Assembly: GCF_021554725.1 (NCBI RefSeq)
Contig: NZ_JAIZDP010000007.1
Location: forward strand, 62,001 to 126,000
Origin: Sinomonas notoginsengisoli
GTDB taxonomy: Bacteria > Actinomycetota > Actinomycetes > Actinomycetales > Micrococcaceae
DNA length: 64,000 nucleotides
Direction of reading: 5' to 3'
Both the position numbers and the translations under genes were made by a program. Shown piece by piece: positions 42,568 through 56,738 of the stretch (the stretch's first letter is position 1; each line of letters begins with the position of its first letter). The notes under the pieces were generated by a model, which was not told where the DNA came from, made no database searches, and was given only the letters and a program-made list of their open reading frames with translations.

Positions 42568-44469
42568 CTACTCGGCGCCCTCCGTGTATCCGGCCGCAGT
42601 GGCTGTCAGCTCCGAGAACTGGGTCGTGTAGAGCTCCGCGTAGCGTCCGTCGGCGGCGAGGAGTTCGCCATGGGTGCCGCGCTCCACGATCGTGCCGCCC
42701 TCGACCACAAGGATCTGGTCGGCCGCCCGGACCGTGGAAAGCCGGTGCGCGATCACAATGGCGGTGCGGCCCTCGAGTGCCTCCCCCAGGGCGGCCTGGA
42801 CGGCGGCCTCGTTCGTCGAGTCCAGAGCGGCCGTCGCCTCGTCGAGGATCACCACCCGCGGCGCCGCGAGCAGGAGCCGCGCAATGGTCAGCCGCTGGCG
42901 CTCGCCGCCCGAGAGGCGGTAGCCGCGCTCCCCCACCACAGTCTCGAGGCCGTCCGGCAGCGAGCGCACCATGTCCTCGAGGCGCGCTCGGCGCAGCACC
43001 TTCCACAGGTCTGCCTCCGTGGCCCCCGGCCGCACGAGGCGCAGGTTCGAGGCGATGCTCTCGTGGAACAGGTGTCCGTCCTGGGTCACCATCCCTACCG
43101 TGCCGCGCATCGAGGCGAAGGTTGTGTCGCGCACGTCGGTTCCGCCGATCCGCACGGCCCCGGAGTCGACGTCGTACAGGCGCGAGAGCAGCTGGGCGAT
43201 CGTCGACTTCCCAGCCCCGGAAGACCCCACGAGCGCAATGGTCTGCCCCGGCTGGACCCGGAATGAGACCCCGTGCAGCACCTCCTCGCCTCCGCGGGCG
43301 TCGAGCACGGCAACCTCCTCGAGCGAGGCGAGGGAGACTTTTTCCGCACTCGGGTAGGAGAACCGCACGTCGTCGAACTCGACTGCCACGGGGCCGCCGG
43401 GAAGGGGTCGCGCGCCGTCCTTCTCTCTGATGAGGGGCGTGAGGTCGAGCACCTCGAACACGCGCTCGAAGCTCACGAGCGCGCTCATGATCTCCACCCG
43501 CGCATTGGAGAGGTTGGTGATCGGCGCGTACAGGCGAGTGAGGAGCAGTGCGAGCACGACGACGTCCCCCGCCGCGAGCTGCCCGCCGATCGCGAGCCAT
43601 CCGCCCACCCCGTAGACGAGCGCGAGCGCGAGGGCCGAGACGAGAGTCAGTGCGGTAATGAAGGTGTAGGAGAGCATTGAGGAGCGGATCCCGATGTCCC
43701 GCACGCGCCGGGCGCGCACGGCGAACTCGCGCGACTCCTCGTCCGGCCGGCCGAAGAGCTTGATGAGCGTCGCGCCAGGGGCGGAGAAGCGCTCCGTCAT
43801 CTGGGTGCTCATCGCCGAGTTGTGCGCGGCGGCCTCGCGGCGCAGGTCGGCGACGCGGGCACCCATGCGGCGCGCCGGAACGAGGAAGACCGGCAGGAGG
43901 ATGAGGGCCAGGACAGTGACCAGCCACGACTTCTGGGCCATGACGGCTACGGTGAGGATGAGCGCGACTGCGTTGCTCACGACGCCGGAGAGGGTCCCGG
44001 CAAACGCGGCCTGAGCCCCGATCACGTCATTGTTGAGCCGGCTGACGAGCGCACCGGTGCGGGTGCGCATGAAGAACGCGATGGGCATCTTCTGCACATG
44101 GTCGAAGACTGCACGGCGCAGGTCGAGGATCACGCCCTCCCCAATCGTCGCCGAGAGCCACCGCGTGAGCATTCCGAAACCCGCATCGGCGAGCGCGACC
44201 AGCGCAATCAGCGCTGCGAGCCAGACCACCGTGGACACGGATGCGCTGGACACGATCGCGTCGACGACCTGGCCGGCGAGCACCGGGGTCGCGACCGCAA
44301 GGAAGGCCGTGACGATCGAGGCCAGCACAAAGGCAACGAGCCGGGCGCGGTGCGGCCGAGCGAAGTCGAGGACGCGCCGGAGGGTCTCGCGGCTGAAGGG
44401 GCTCTTCCCGCCTTGGGCGCGCGAGATCTGGTGCAGCGAGCTCCACGCCGCACTCTGCATGCTGCTCAT
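42568..44469 (-). CDS. ABC exporter, fused membrane and ATPase domains
   Basis: A 633-residue half-transporter. Six membrane helices in residues 40-330 (LVAFVLASIVTAFLAVATPV first), then the ATPase with Walker A GSSGAGKST near 425, signature LSGGERQRL, Walker B VVILDEATAALD and the H-loop IVIAHRLSTV. ATG at 44469 has an AGGAG SD. An in-frame ATG at 44574 would translate the leader hairpin and is rejected. Multidrug or lipid export is likely. The mRNA leader contains a terminator-like hairpin. Confidence 0.9.
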   Translation of the reverse strand: MSSMQSAAWSSLHQISRAQGGKSPFSRETLRRVLDFARPHRARLVAFVLASIVTAFLAVATPVLAGQVVDAIVSSASVSTVVWLAALIALVALADAGFGMLTRWLSATIGEGVILDLRRAVFDHVQKMPIAFFMRTRTGALVSRLNNDVIGAQAAFAGTLSGVVSNAVALILTVAVMAQKSWLVTVLALILLPVFLVPARRMGARVADLRREAAAHNSAMSTQMTERFSAPGATLIKLFGRPDEESREFAVRARRVRDIGIRSSMLSYTFITALTLVSALALALVYGVGGWLAIGGQLAAGDVVVLALLLTRLYAPITNLSNARVEIMSALVSFERVFEVLDLTPLIREKDGARPLPGGPVAVEFDDVRFSYPSAEKVSLASLEEVAVLDARGGEEVLHGVSFRVQPGQTIALVGSSGAGKSTIAQLLSRLYDVDSGAVRIGGTDVRDTTFASMRGTVGMVTQDGHLFHESIASNLRLVRPGATEADLWKVLRRARLEDMVRSLPDGLETVVGERGYRLSGGERQRLTIARLLLAAPRVVILDEATAALDSTNEAAVQAALGEALEGRTAIVIAHRLSTVRAADQILVVEGGTIVERGTHGELLAADGRYAELYTTQFSELTATAAGYTEGAE

Positions 44470-44491
44470 GAGTTCTCCTGAACGTGAAAGA

Positions 44492-44530
44492 CCCGCCGAC
44501 TCGCGATTGGGGGGTGCGCGAGCCGGCGGG
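44492..44530 (-). promoter_or_regulatory. Terminator-like hairpin in the ABC exporter leader
   Basis: On the transcript, CCCGCCGGCTCGCG (44530-44517) pairs with CGCGAGTCGGCGGG (44505-44492), 14 bp with one mismatch and an 11-nt loop, and is followed at once by TCTTTCACGTT, only 22 nt before the ATG. The position suggests attenuation control. Confidence 0.5.
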
Positions 44531-44587
44531 CTAAATCCAGCATAGGCCAGCTGCAGGCCGGACGTAAAATTCATCTCTGCCCATCAG

Positions 44588-44593
44588 TAGAAT
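44588..44593 (+). promoter_or_regulatory. -10 box for the double-HTH gene
   Basis: TAGAAT, with no clear -35. The overlapping ATTCTA on the other strand may serve the ABC exporter, giving a back-to-back promoter. Confidence 0.35.
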
Positions 44594-44654
44594 CGATCTG
44601 CAGAACGTCGGCACGTGCGGGAACAGTCCCGGCGGGCGCATACAAGGGGGGTCC

Positions 44655-45407
44655 ATGCCGGTTTCAGCTCTCGTCTTCCGGGACTGGCTGCAGGAGCTCG
44701 CTCCGGGACGGTCCGCGGCGGATGTATGCCGTCGCTCTGGGCTCAAGCGCAGCACACTCGCCCAGCAGATGGTTCGCGGGAAGGTCACGGAGGCCACGGT
44801 GGTGGCGATTGCCCGCGCCTATGGCGAGAATCCGGTTGTCGGCCTCGCTCGCTTCGCCCCGTACAAGGACCTCGCTGCAAGCACCGCCGCACCCACCGAC
44901 GCAGAACTGCTGAGCCAGGTCTCCACGTCGCGGCTCCTCACGGAGCTGCTGGTGCGCAGCGGCGAGCTCGCCGAGCTTCGCGCAGGCCCCTCCGGGGCGC
45001 ACATCCCCCATGACCGCCTCGACTGCACCACCTGCGAGCCTGACGTGCGGCACTGGGTGGACGCGATTGACGACGGCGACCTCCGCCACCGCGTGAGCGA
45101 CGCCGCGGGGATCGCCCCCCAGAACTTCTCCGCCCAGCTGCGCGCAAACCGTCTCAGCCCCGAGCTTGCCGTCAGCACTGCGCGCGAGGCCGGCGTCGGT
45201 CTCCGCAACGGGCTCGTGGTGACTGGGCTTGTCACAGCGCAAGAGGCCGGATGGCCCGGCGAGGTGTGGGAGGGAGCAGTGCGGCGCCTGCCGGACGCCG
45301 AGCTGGCCTTCATGGCTGCCGACCGGCTCAGCCTGCTCGGCCGCGCCCTGCGCCGGCAGACCTCGGACGAGCGTGCCGTGCAGCGCGTGTGGGAGCACCT
45401 CGGGTGA
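44655..45407 (+). CDS. Putative DNA-binding protein with two XRE-like helix-turn-helix regions
   Basis: A 250-residue protein. First HTH at about residues 8-62 (SAADVCRRSGLKRSTLAQQM), and a second similar unit at about 128-190 (LRHRVSDAAGIAPQNFSAQL, then LSPELAVSTAREAG). The C-terminus DAELAFMAADRLSLLGRAL is helical. No peptidase, kinase or known sensor domain. The gene overlaps the next by 4 nt (GTGA), coupling it to a seven-helix membrane protein. Function unknown; a membrane-signal-responsive regulator is a working idea. Confidence 0.65.
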   Translation: MPVSALVFRDWLQELAPGRSAADVCRRSGLKRSTLAQQMVRGKVTEATVVAIARAYGENPVVGLARFAPYKDLAASTAAPTDAELLSQVSTSRLLTELLVRSGELAELRAGPSGAHIPHDRLDCTTCEPDVRHWVDAIDDGDLRHRVSDAAGIAPQNFSAQLRANRLSPELAVSTAREAGVGLRNGLVVTGLVTAQEAGWPGEVWEGAVRRLPDAELAFMAADRLSLLGRALRRQTSDERAVQRVWEHLG

Positions 45408-46102
45408 CCTGGCTCGCCTGGATTACCTTCGGACTGGCACTCGTGCTCGCAGCAGTCCGTATCCCTGCCGCCGTCAGGGGCCAGAACCGGCTCATGCTGG
45501 GCCTCTTCGCGCTGATCGCGGGAGCAGTACTGTTGAGCATCCAGGGCCCGTACCTGGCGATCGACGCCGCCTTGGGCGGGTTCAACCTCACCAATCTCGT
45601 CCTGAGGTTCCTCCTGTTCGCGATCTCGCTGCTGCTCGCCGTGCGGATCGCGCGCGCCTTCAACGCCCGGGACGCTCAGCACATCCTGCTCGGACCGTGG
45701 GGACTCGCGGCCCTCGGGCTCGTGTGCGTGGGGACGGTGGTGTCCTTCCTGCTCATGGGGGCCGTCCCCTCGAGCGTGGGACTCGGTGCAGGCGAGGACG
45801 AGCACTGGTTCGAGGCCTACGCGTCCTTGGGCCGCGTCTACCCGACGTTCACCGGCCTCGTGCTCCTCCCGTGCCTTGTCCGCGCCGTCCGGCTGCGCGG
45901 CCTAGGCGTGCTTCGAAGCGCTGCCGCCCTTCTCGCAGCGGGCTACGTTCTGCTCGCGCTGACGAACCTGTTCCCGCTCATGCCGGATGAGTGGGTAGCC
46001 GCGAAGCAGACCATGAACTACGGCTCCCTCCTGCTCCTGCTCACTGGCCTCGCAACTATCTGGATGGCCAGCGTCGTTACCCGCCGTCGTAGCGAAACAT
46101 AG
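45404..46102 (+). CDS. Seven-helix membrane protein, resembles the MAB_1171c membrane domain
   Basis: A 232-residue protein made almost only of seven membrane helices (WLAWITFGLALVLAAVRI first, YGSLLLLLTGLATIWMASVV last). The pattern IQGPYLAIDAALGGFNLTNL followed by a helix is like the N-terminal part of MAB_1171c-type actinobacterial membrane proteins, but the cytosolic C-terminal half of that family is missing. GTG start overlaps the stop of the HTH gene. Function unknown. Confidence 0.65.
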   Translation: MTWLAWITFGLALVLAAVRIPAAVRGQNRLMLGLFALIAGAVLLSIQGPYLAIDAALGGFNLTNLVLRFLLFAISLLLAVRIARAFNARDAQHILLGPWGLAALGLVCVGTVVSFLLMGAVPSSVGLGAGEDEHWFEAYASLGRVYPTFTGLVLLPCLVRAVRLRGLGVLRSAAALLAAGYVLLALTNLFPLMPDEWVAAKQTMNYGSLLLLLTGLATIWMASVVTRRRSET

Positions 46103-46250
46103 GGGTAAAATCCAGTCGCCGGAGGAACTGAATTCACATTTTCATTAGTTCATGCCACAATCATGAATGTGTGAACAAGCCCCTGCCGGGGGGACAGGGG
46201 TTCCGCATTGGGGGGATGAGTGGCGGCGGCCTTCGGGCCGCCACCACTCA
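46103..46250 (+). ncRNA. Possible small structured RNA between convergent genes
   Basis: A promoter-like pair TTCACA (46133-46138) and CACAAT (46156-46161), 17-bp spacer, would start RNA near 46168. The transcript would contain a CCCCTG/CAGGGG hairpin (around 46179-46200) and end in the 15-bp hairpin at 46217-46250. The region is AT-rich at its 5' end and also holds an imperfect 13-bp dyad (46133-46145 / 46163-46175). No conserved protein reads through it. Hypothetical. Confidence 0.3.
46217..46250. terminator. Bidirectional terminator with TTCG loop
   Basis: TGAGTGGCGGCGGCC (46217-46231) and GGCCGCCACCACTCA (46236-46250), 15-bp stem with one mismatch around TTCG. It includes the stop codon of the alpha-mannosidase. 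Confidence 0.7.
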
Positions 46251-49200
46251 GCCAAGTGAGGTGGCTTCCCTCGGCGCTGGCGCGTCAGAGGCGTTCGAAC
46301 GCCGCAGCCGCAGTGTCACAAGTTCGAACGGGCGCAGCCGCAGCCGCGCGGCACCGTCAAGCACCGATTCCACCGGCGTCGGGGCACCGCTGCCAGAGGG
46401 CCGTTCAAGCAGGTCCACCGCTGCGATGCCAACGCAGTCGAAGCCCGCACGCACCTCGACGGATGCCCGGGCGCCAAGAGACTCGTAGAGCCGCACCACC
46501 ACGTCCCCGGTCCCGTCCTCGGCCAGTTTCACTGCCTCGACCACCACTTGTGGATTGTCCAGCACCACGAGGGGTTCCACATCCCGCGCGCCGCGCACGA
46601 TCCGTTGCGGGAGGTTGACGTCGTAGCCCTCGCGAATGGCCTCGGCAATGTCCGCACCGGGCGTCACGACCGTCGTAAAGCTGTGGACCCCGGCGTCCGC
46701 AGTGGGATCGGGGAACAGCGGTGACTTCAGCAGCGAGAGGCGGACGGTCGTCGTCGTCCCTCCGTCTCCGCGCACGCTCCGCGTGACGTCGTGGCCATAC
46801 GACGTGCAGTTGGCGATCGCGATGCCGTAGTCCGGCTCGCCGACATGAATCCACCGGTGCGCGCAGATCTCGAACCGCGCCGCGTCCCACGAGGTATTGA
46901 CCGGGATGGGCCGGAAGACGTGGCCGAATTGGGTCTCGGACGCGCTGCGGTCCGCCCGCACGTCCAGGCCGAAACCAAGCTTGAGCAGCTTCTGGCGCTC
47001 GTGCCAGTCAACCTCGGTCTCGATCCGCAGTCCTCGGGCACCTGGAGCCAGGACGATCCGCTGCACCACGCTCGAGTTCCTGAATGCCCGGCGAACCTCG
47101 AGCACCGCGTCCGCGCCGGTGCCGACGGCCGGCGCCACCGAGGCCGCCGCCGTGATGGCCTCGACGTTGTGCCGGTAGAACTCGTCGAGGTCCCACGCGT
47201 CCCACTCGTTGGGCATGTCGCGGTGCAGCTCGAGGAGATTCCCGCGGGCGCCCGGGGCGATCGCGTTGCGGCCTGTCACTGCGTCCACGAGGCCCACGAG
47301 GAGGCCGTCGCTGTCGATCTCTGCGGTCATGGTGCCGTTCTCGAGGATCCATCCGCCCGCCCGCCCGGGCAGCACGCGCGCCGCACTGCCCGGACGCACG
47401 ACGGCGCCACCCCCCAGCGCGGGCACGCCACCTCGGGCGTGGGGGGCTGCGTTGAGGAGGATCTCCCGCTCCCCCGCCCCCACGAGCGTGCCCGCAGCGT
47501 CCGCGATGAGCCGATCGAGGTCATGGCCGATGGCCTCGTAGTTCCGCTCGGCATCCCGGTGCACCCATGCGATGGAGCTCCCGGGGAGGATGTCGTGGAA
47601 CTGCTGGAGCAGGACGAGCCGCCAGATCCGGCGCAGCTCCTCGGCCGGGTAGGGCGCCGCGGCGCGGACGGAGGCGGTGGCGCACCAGAGCTCGGCTTCG
47701 CGCAGGAGGTGCTCGCTGCGCCGGTTTCCGGCCTTCGTGCGGGACTGCGCCGTGTAGGTGCCGCGGTGCTTCTCAAGGTACATCTCGCCCGTCCACACGG
47801 GAGGGCTGGCGTACTCGGCCTCGGCCTCGTGGAAGAACTCGCGAGGCGTGCCCACGCGGACCCGGGGCGAGCCCTCCAGGTTGCTGTAGCGGCGCGCCGC
47901 CGCCATCATCTCGCGCGTGGGGCCGCCGCCGCCGTCCCCGAAGCCGAAGGGGACAAGTGAGACTCCTGCCCGCCCGTGCTCGCGGAAGGTCCGCTCCGCG
48001 TGGGCCAGGTTGGAGGCGCTCAGGTCCGAGCTGTAGGTGTCAGCAGGCGGAAAGTGGGTGAAGACGCGCGACCCGTCGATCCCCTCCCAGACAAAGGAGT
48101 GGTGCGGGAACCGGTTGATCTGGTTCCAGGAGATCTTCTGTGTGAGGAACCAGCGGCAGCCTGCCGCCCTCACGATCTGCGGCAGCGCGGCCGAGTAGCC
48201 GAACGAGTCTGGAAGCCACGCTTCCTCGCACTCAACACCGAGCTCCTCGAGGAAGAACCGCTTGCCCTCGACGAACTGGCGGGCCAAGGCCTCGCCGCCG
48301 GGCATGTTCGTGTCCGATTCGACCCACATGCCGCCCACGGGCATGAACCGCCCCTCGGCGACCTTCTCCTTGATCCGTTCGAAGAGGAGCGGATACCCGT
48401 CCCGGATCCATGCGAGCTGCTGTGCGGACGAGCAGGAGAACGTCAGGTCCGGGTCCTGGTCCATGAGCGCCACGACATTCGAAAAGGTGCGCGCGCATTT
48501 GCGCTGGGTCTCGCGCACGGGCCACAGCCACGCGGAATCGATGTGCGCATGGCCAGTCGCGACGATCCGGTGTGCGCTGGCCTCCGCGGGCGAGGTGAGC
48601 ACCTCCGCGAGCGCCGCGCGGCCGTCCGCGGCGGTGCCCGCCACGTCCTGGGGGTCCACGATGTCCGCCATGCGCTCGAGCGCCCGGAGGATCAGGTGGC
48701 GGCGGGGGCGGTCCATCGGCAGCTCGTGCATGAGGCCCCAGATGGCCGAGACGTCCTGGACGAGTTCCCAGACGGTGACGTCCCGCTCGGCGATGACGAG
48801 GGGGCCGAAGCGGTACAGAGGAGCGTCCCCGGCGGTATCCCTGTCCCCCAGGGGAGTCGGCTGGAAGAGCCAGCCGCCCGCAAGGTCCGGGTTCGCCGCA
48901 GCCTCGACGTAGAAGTCCACCTCCGGGCCGCCCCCGAGCGCCTCGAGCGGAACGTACCGGTTGCGGGGATTGAGGGCCTTGGCAATGCCGCCGTCAGGCA
49001 GCCACGCGAGGCCTTCGCACTGGAACCCGGGAAGCTGCGCGGTGTAGCCGAGGTCCACGAGGACCTCGACATCCGTGCCCGGTCCTCCCCAGCCCTCTGG
49101 CACTCGGCCCGTGAGGTGCAGCCACGTAGTCCCCCACGCTCGGCCCCATTCCTCGCCGGCATCAGCGGGGCGGAATGCCTGGGCGCGCGCCTGCTCGAAC

Positions 49201-55377: not shown

Positions 55378-55383
55378 AGAAAT

Positions 55384-55556
55384 AGCCTCTCCCAATGCCT
55401 ACGAGGTGAGCTGTCGGGTTCGGATGGAAAGTATCCGGCGCCCTGACGGATCAGGCCGCTTAACCCCAAGGCCCTCCGAAGAGGACCAAAAGTGGTTCCC
55501 CCGCCTCTGCCAGCGGTATGTGCGAACGGCTCCGGGAAGTGGCAGAGCTCGGCGAG
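55384..55556 (-). promoter_or_regulatory. ydaO-type c-di-AMP riboswitch 1
   Basis: On the transcript: the 5' stem GCCGAGCTCTGCCAC and GGCAGAGGCGGGGGAACCA (ydaO core), GGGGTTAAGC, then the 3' half CATCCGAACCCGACAGCTCA and CCTCGTAGGCATTGGGAGAG, directly before the GTG of the NlpC/P60 gene at 55377. The pattern matches actinobacterial ydaO elements before cell-wall hydrolases. c-di-AMP usually turns such genes off. Confidence 0.88.
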
Positions 55557-56502: not shown

Positions 56503-56738
56503 GATTCCCTCTCTGTCATCGCCTGCGAAGTTAGCTGTCGGGTTCGAGTCAGAGAGCCACAGACTCGGCCCAGCCGCGTCGGGCAAGGCAGGCGACGGCC
56601 TGAGGCTGGCGCGTGCGGGTTCTTCCGAAGCGTGCTGCGGGCTTCACCCCAAAGCGGCTCACGCCGCCACCGGTGGTTCCCCCGCCTCTGCCATCATCTG
56701 GATTCTGGTCCAGACCCGCTGGCAGAGCTCGGCGTGCA
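56503..56738 (-). promoter_or_regulatory. ydaO-type c-di-AMP riboswitch 2
   Basis: The same core on the transcript: GCCGAGCTCTGCCAGCGG, GGCAGAGGCGGGGGAACCAC, GGGGTGAAGCCC, and 3' GAACCCGACAGCTAACTTCG then GCAGGCGATGACAGAGAGGG, ending at the TTG of the M23 gene. The middle variable stem is longer than in riboswitch 1. Confidence 0.88.

Follow-up and report, generated by a model that had tools for sequence, protein, structure and literature searches.

The adjoining genes A and B of a Sinomonas genome, together with a palindromic candidate operator (O) and a candidate small RNA (D) directly behind them, may form a compact membrane-to-RNA signalling module, a reading to which we give a probability of roughly 0.6. 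The pair lies at the following positions of the window, i.e., the whole 64,000-nucleotide stretch analysed, which comes from a 3.59-Mb genome with Sinomonas sp. R1AF57 as a near relative:

44655..45407, plus strand: A, candidate regulator of 250 aa, two XRE-like HTH units
45404..46102, plus strand: B, GTG start, 232 aa, seven-helix membrane protein

An earlier, sequence-only reading had placed the pair at 44655-46102 with a GTGA overlap of the two reading frames and had described the coupling as strict, and inspection of the frames and of relatives bears it out on all of these points. A and B adjoin in 15/15 Sinomonas genomes (the window genome plus 14 further ones) and in four other genera of this first sample. 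Across a family sample of 245 Micrococcaceae genomes, in which B matches of at least 79 bits were counted (n=107), A is located directly upstream of B, with short gaps, in 104 of the 107 close B relatives. The coupling persists at 20–25% identity and on plasmids, and mobile-looking contigs retain the pair although A is divergent there, so that the genes are kept together even in very divergent plasmid copies. A was found in 31 plasmid records (Arthrobacter, Clavibacter, Paenarthrobacter, and others). Variations on the layout are an A-B-B order in two genomes and two tandem A-B pairs in one. Both genes appear to be under purifying selection, with dN/dS of ~0.2 for each. The search for related loci returned one genome locus and no viral relatives, and a library of defence systems gave no match.

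The surroundings of the pair vary. In several plasmid-like or mobile copies (among L166, L167, and L169-L173) B is followed by a short gene whose product appears to resemble a ribbon-helix-helix or plasmid accessory protein. At other loci (L062, L065, L066, L144, L160-L165, L168, and L174) the DNA 3' of B seems to encode a convergent PAP2-like protein; the product predicted in L062 was compared with Pfam and gave a weak PAP2 match, and at that locus the candidate operator and D are situated beyond the PAP2-like gene. Elsewhere in the window, two matches to the c-di-AMP riboswitch (ydaO/yuaA leader) occur on the minus strand at 55382-55541 and 56504-56720, ~1.3 kb apart or less.

Three features of A bear on its putative role as regulator:

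44676..44852, plus strand: HTH unit 1 of A, residues 8-66, recognition helix KRSTLAQQMVRGKV, from AlphaFold and phrog_16278
45045..45230, plus strand: HTH unit 2 of A, residues 131-192, helix APQNFSAQLRANRL, from hhalign to unit 1, phrog_31301, and low-confidence helices
45393..45404, plus strand: C-terminal tail of A (...EHLG), with the terminal Leu/Ile-Gly retained in B-paired copies

The N-terminal unit is XRE-like and is modelled by AlphaFold with a pLDDT of 80–87 over residues 1-60 and of 71 over residues 61-70; phrog_16278 ('HTH DNA binding protein') matches residues 9-66 of the window protein and 19/19 homologues. Past residue 70 the model is weak, as is the model of B, both having been built from two sequences, and at unit 2 the pLDDT drops to ~45, yet the series of helices is the same as in unit 1. 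Residues 150-192 are matched by phrog_31301 ('DNA binding protein', E 2e-4). When profiles of the two halves were built from 85 distinct A sequences (first 75 positions vs. positions 128-205), units 1 and 2 aligned without gaps over 59 columns (hhalign 98.1%, E 1e-13). By this gapless alignment and the phrog matches, A is an internal duplication of one HTH unit. The two XRE-like units proposed from the letters alone are thereby upheld, the second by hhalign and phrog_31301 rather than by a confident model: the structure prediction is confident for residues 1-60 and poor at the second HTH. At its own cut-off no Pfam model, HTH models included, matches the window protein, HTH models matching only below their cut-offs, and Foldseek returned Cro, C-proteins, and SinR at non-significant E-values. 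Single HTH units of the kind found in XRE/Cro-type repressors, including phrog_16278, resemble unit 1; unlike those repressors, A has two such units and a conserved C-terminal tail. This tail ends in Leu/Ile-Gly in 43/48 B-paired copies, very divergent ones included, vs. 3/10 copies without B, and these three unpaired copies all belong to one genus and all retain D. That the end of A follows B in this manner is the best hint, at the level of sequence, that the two proteins might touch. It also lends indirect support to the membrane sequestration that the earlier reading had put forward as an example of how the pair might work.

B displays seven hydrophobic segments in an analysis of twenty homologues. 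Because Lys and Arg are concentrated in loops 1, 3, 5, and 7 (means of 1.5–2.7 vs. 0.5–0.8 elsewhere), the predicted topology is N-out/C-in. The most conserved positions are Y50, D54, L57-G58-G59, N61, N64, S123, and G126, many of them at outer loops or loop edges. Aligned with seven long MAB_1171c-type proteins, B matches over its full length (hhalign 99.4%, E 4.8e-21) to the first ~246 residues of these ~340-residue proteins and ends where their cytosolic part begins (~246 of 343). The family of MAB_1171c putative transporters (NF042915) thus shares its membrane half with B over the whole length of B, the LGGxN motif included, whereas the ~95-residue cytosolic part present there is absent from B. 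Together, the seven helices and the end-to-end alignment agree with the earlier description of B as the membrane half of a MAB_1171c-type protein without its cytosolic part. B scores 21.8 bits against the NF042915 model itself, for which the curated cut-off is 100, and no Pfam model matches B at its cut-off. Rhodopsins and GPCRs returned by Foldseek for the weak AlphaFold model of B were non-significant, and we give them no functional weight. No full-length MAB_1171c protein scores above the cut-off in the window genome. A mutant of MAB_1171c forms about half the biofilm mass (PMC8707978), and this mutant phenotype is the only functional literature found for the protein.

The long members of the family differ from B in their neighbours as well, adjoining a peptidase-like protein where B adjoins an HTH protein. 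At four inspected loci (L132, L133, L134, and L135) the long MAB_1171c-type protein stands directly behind a small HExxH protein which, read by eye, resembles ImmA/IrrE; its peptidase family was unconfirmed by Pfam at E 1e-3. These loci could be a related system in which a peptidase replaces the HTH protein.

Aligning the DNA behind B across relatives brought to light a palindrome directly 3' of B. While the pair had been delimited correctly, the span 44655-46102 holds A and B only, and the likely output, i.e., O and the candidate small RNA, is found directly downstream:

46133..46175, no strand assigned: O, 43-bp palindromic candidate operator TTCACA-N3-TCATTA-N13-TCATGA-N3-TGTGAA, from relatives and a reversed-pattern control
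46133..46161, plus strand: putative D promoter, TTCACA-N17-CACAAT, the second hexamer preceded by TG, from the promoter scan

The consensus, TTCACA-N3-TCATTA-N13-TMATGA-N3-TGTGAA, forms a dyad of 6-3-6-13-6-3-6 bases, and variants of it are present in 45 loci. Each arm has two kinds of subsite, which is what a dimeric protein with two HTHs would call for. When three mismatches were tolerated, 17 of 58 relatives had exactly one copy of the pattern each, in every case a short way behind A-B, and the other 41, among which G019 and G035 carry distant A-B copies only, had none; the reversed pattern, used as a control, gave 0 matches among the 58, and no O was found upstream of A. The sole sigma70-like promoter site between 44400 and 46320 on either strand (0.1 expected) falls inside O, which spans the predicted D promoter from the −35 to about +8. 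In lineages that retain O, the recognition helices of A, KR(S/T)TLAQQxVRGK/RV and APQNxSAQL/IxANRL, are nearly invariant, and in those where O was not found (PAP2 context and mobile copies) both helices are altered, kinship being ignored in either observation. Genera g52 and g53 combine a change of ANRL to AGRL (N to G) in the second HTH with TGTAAC in place of TGTGAA as the outer right subsite; again ignoring kinship, this joint change suggests that HTH unit 2 may read the outer subsite. In genus g46 the outer right subsite is altered, yet ANRL is retained.

Downstream of the promoter lies the candidate RNA:

46168..46262, plus strand: D, candidate small RNA of ~95 nt with G-run ATTGGGGGG at 46207-46215 and a terminator-like hairpin, from compensatory changes and a match of model R1

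The start at 46168 was taken from the position of the −10. D consists of a G-run (TTGGGGGGATGAGTGG) followed by a GC-rich hairpin in which 8/16 pairs show compensatory changes, and the covariance model R1 matches 46197-46261 at 66 bits. Several other genera have a T-rich 3' tail or T-runs; the hairpin of the Sinomonas D is terminator-like without a T-run, and a terminator scan found none. Searching the 245 genomes with the covariance model located D behind B or a solo A, on the same strand, at 52/56 full-length places. These 56 places were checked by coordinate; outside the count are some weaker matches, most of which score under 37 bits and many of which are the same hairpin read from the opposite strand. 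The other four places all belong to genus g19 (L222-L225), which has neither A nor B and where the ABC exporter, its hairpin U (see below), and D remain while O is absent and other sequence precedes D. This genus indicates that O tracks A and that D can exist without A. Upstream of its D is a different palindrome (GGTGATCTGATCACGG), perhaps the site of another regulator. Conversely, three copies of a solo A (L118-L120), all from a single genus, are followed by the O-D element, resembling a second circuit whose membrane protein has gone missing; in those copies B is dispensable. Since the PAP2-context and plasmid copies of A-B mostly have no recognisable O or D, the output differs between lineages.

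At gathering score, no Rfam family matches D. The 6C/B11 RNA (RF01066) is another short actinobacterial RNA and is thought to act via homopolymeric loops, which are C-runs there and G-runs in D. Its model matches nowhere in the window genome and not at D, and its known distribution is also unlike that of D. As a partner of D, 6C RNA was dropped because the window genome lacks an RF01066 match.

A second hairpin, U, precedes A and would be part of the leader of a divergently transcribed exporter gene:

44492..44530, no strand assigned: U hairpin, 5' of A, loop read as ATTGGGGGG in the direction of A and as CCCCCCAAT in that of the divergent ABC gene
44539..44568, minus strand: promoter-like TTTACG-N18-TATGCT for the divergent ABC exporter, found by eye, N17 in relatives
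42571..44469, minus strand: divergent ABC exporter, Pfam ABC_membrane and ABC_tran, whose leader would carry U

U is single-copy in the window genome. Across several genera its stems are unrelated and the type of G-run loop on the A strand is kept. On the exporter strand U has a C-rich loop, followed in some genera by T-rich sequence, and some positions that are mismatched on the A strand would pair as G-U there. The TTTACG-N18-TATGCT site is conserved in 14 Sinomonas genomes, with the same arrangement in genus g9; the promoter scan of 44400-46320, run under a stricter rule, did not list it. Orthologues of the exporter exist in 30/30 genomes and adjoin A in some genera only. Within their own genus, the loops of U and D are complementary over 6–11 nt, much of it homopolymer. 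When genera were permuted, the summed complementarity was as high in 1296/40320 cases; support for a U-D kissing interaction is thus marginal, and we offer the pairing as an idea. The exporter was rejected as a general target of D, as genera g45, g46, g49, g52, and g53 have the orthologue elsewhere and without a recognisable U.

In the proposed module, the four subsites of the 43-bp O would be occupied by the four HTHs of an A dimer; binding of O by such a dimer is very probable. A bound to O would block the promoter of D. That D is transcribed seems highly likely, and that A represses it seems reasonably likely because O covers the D promoter. B, whose conserved residues would be largely on the outer side, probably senses a signal and holds or releases A, and D would go up or down in response. 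Control of A by B is likely, and for control through contact or sequestration, perhaps with B gripping the C-terminal tail of A, we consider the odds about even. The exposed G-run of D might then act on C-rich loops, possibly the U loop in the exporter leader. A stronger version, in which a new class of circuit would have a seven-helix receptor contacting a tandem-HTH repressor, one operator per genome, and, as sole output, D, with its G-run loop kissing the C-run loop of U in the leader of the linked exporter, so that an outside signal would pass from membrane to DNA to RNA within a single 2-kb cassette, is improbable.

Among other explanations, A and O-D might form a complete switch that responds to a cytoplasmic cue or to the level of A itself, with B as a passenger, e.g., a co-transcribed small transporter. 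The three solo A copies that retain D without B would fit such a switch, as would the 'putative transporter' name of the MAB_1171c proteins and the roughly halved biofilm mass of the mutant (PMC8707978). However, A remains coupled to B at 20–25% identity and on plasmids, the Leu/Ile-Gly end of A tracks B, and solo A is rare, with solo A plus D confined to one genus, all of which make a passenger role unlikely. Alternatively, A could activate D and B could be an inhibitor whose loss switches D on, by analogy with the two-gene logic of a transcription factor and a membrane inhibitor described for LytTR Regulatory Systems (LRS; PMC6193735). Activation in this manner is doubtful: both the −35 and the −10 of D fall within O, the LRS repeats by contrast sit shortly before the −35 of the operon they belong to, and no O precedes A.

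D could also be the terminator at which A-B transcription ends, conserved as such, with O a relic of a promoter or the site of another factor. The place of the Sinomonas D between B and a convergent gene and the terminator-like hairpin of its final part would suit a terminator, but a terminator needs neither a G-run nor O, nor does it explain a conserved promoter inside O, the absence of O where A is missing, or the persistence of D after a solo A and, in genus g19, where A-B is missing altogether; we thus consider it quite improbable. Least plausible is descent of the locus from a MAB_1171c/metallopeptidase system, with A as a repressor cleaved by a peptidase encoded elsewhere. It is suggested by the four inspected long MAB_1171c loci with their preceding, by eye ImmA/IrrE-like, HExxH protein. 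Against it, no such gene adjoins A-B, Pfam confirmed no peptidase family at E 1e-3, and no full-length MAB_1171c protein of the window genome exceeds the cut-off, leaving cleavage of A a very unlikely scenario. The signalling module, with A as a repressor of D under the control of B, remains our preferred reading.

On this reading, 'hypothetical' proteins and relatives of a 'putative transporter' become a regulatory pair open to experiment, with its candidate operator and its output both specified, and with one operator-like site per genome the circuit would be very clean to work on. The membrane half of MAB_1171c proteins would here be coupled straight to a transcription factor. A further gain is a conserved candidate small RNA with G-run loops, shared by a group of soil Actinobacteria.

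LRS, such as HdrRM and BrsRM, are two-gene units of a DNA-binding regulator and an inhibiting transmembrane protein, with feedback on the promoter of the operon itself via direct repeats shortly before its −35 (PMC6193735), and they appear to be the closest functional analogue of A-B. Both consist of a regulator and a membrane partner, in a candidate operon here, and neither involves a kinase or sigma factor. The LRS regulator, however, has a LytTR fold, whereas A is a tandem XRE-like protein without LytTR among its Pfam matches, and, where the LRS promoter has direct repeats, the one match to the O pattern at A-B is a palindrome over the predicted promoter of a downstream candidate small RNA. 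Because protein families, operator logic, and RNA output all differ, A-B is not a member of the LRS. As a functional kind, pairs of a transcription factor and a membrane protein are already known from the LRS; new beyond the sequence-only reading are the operator-like palindrome over the promoter of D and the structured candidate small RNA itself.
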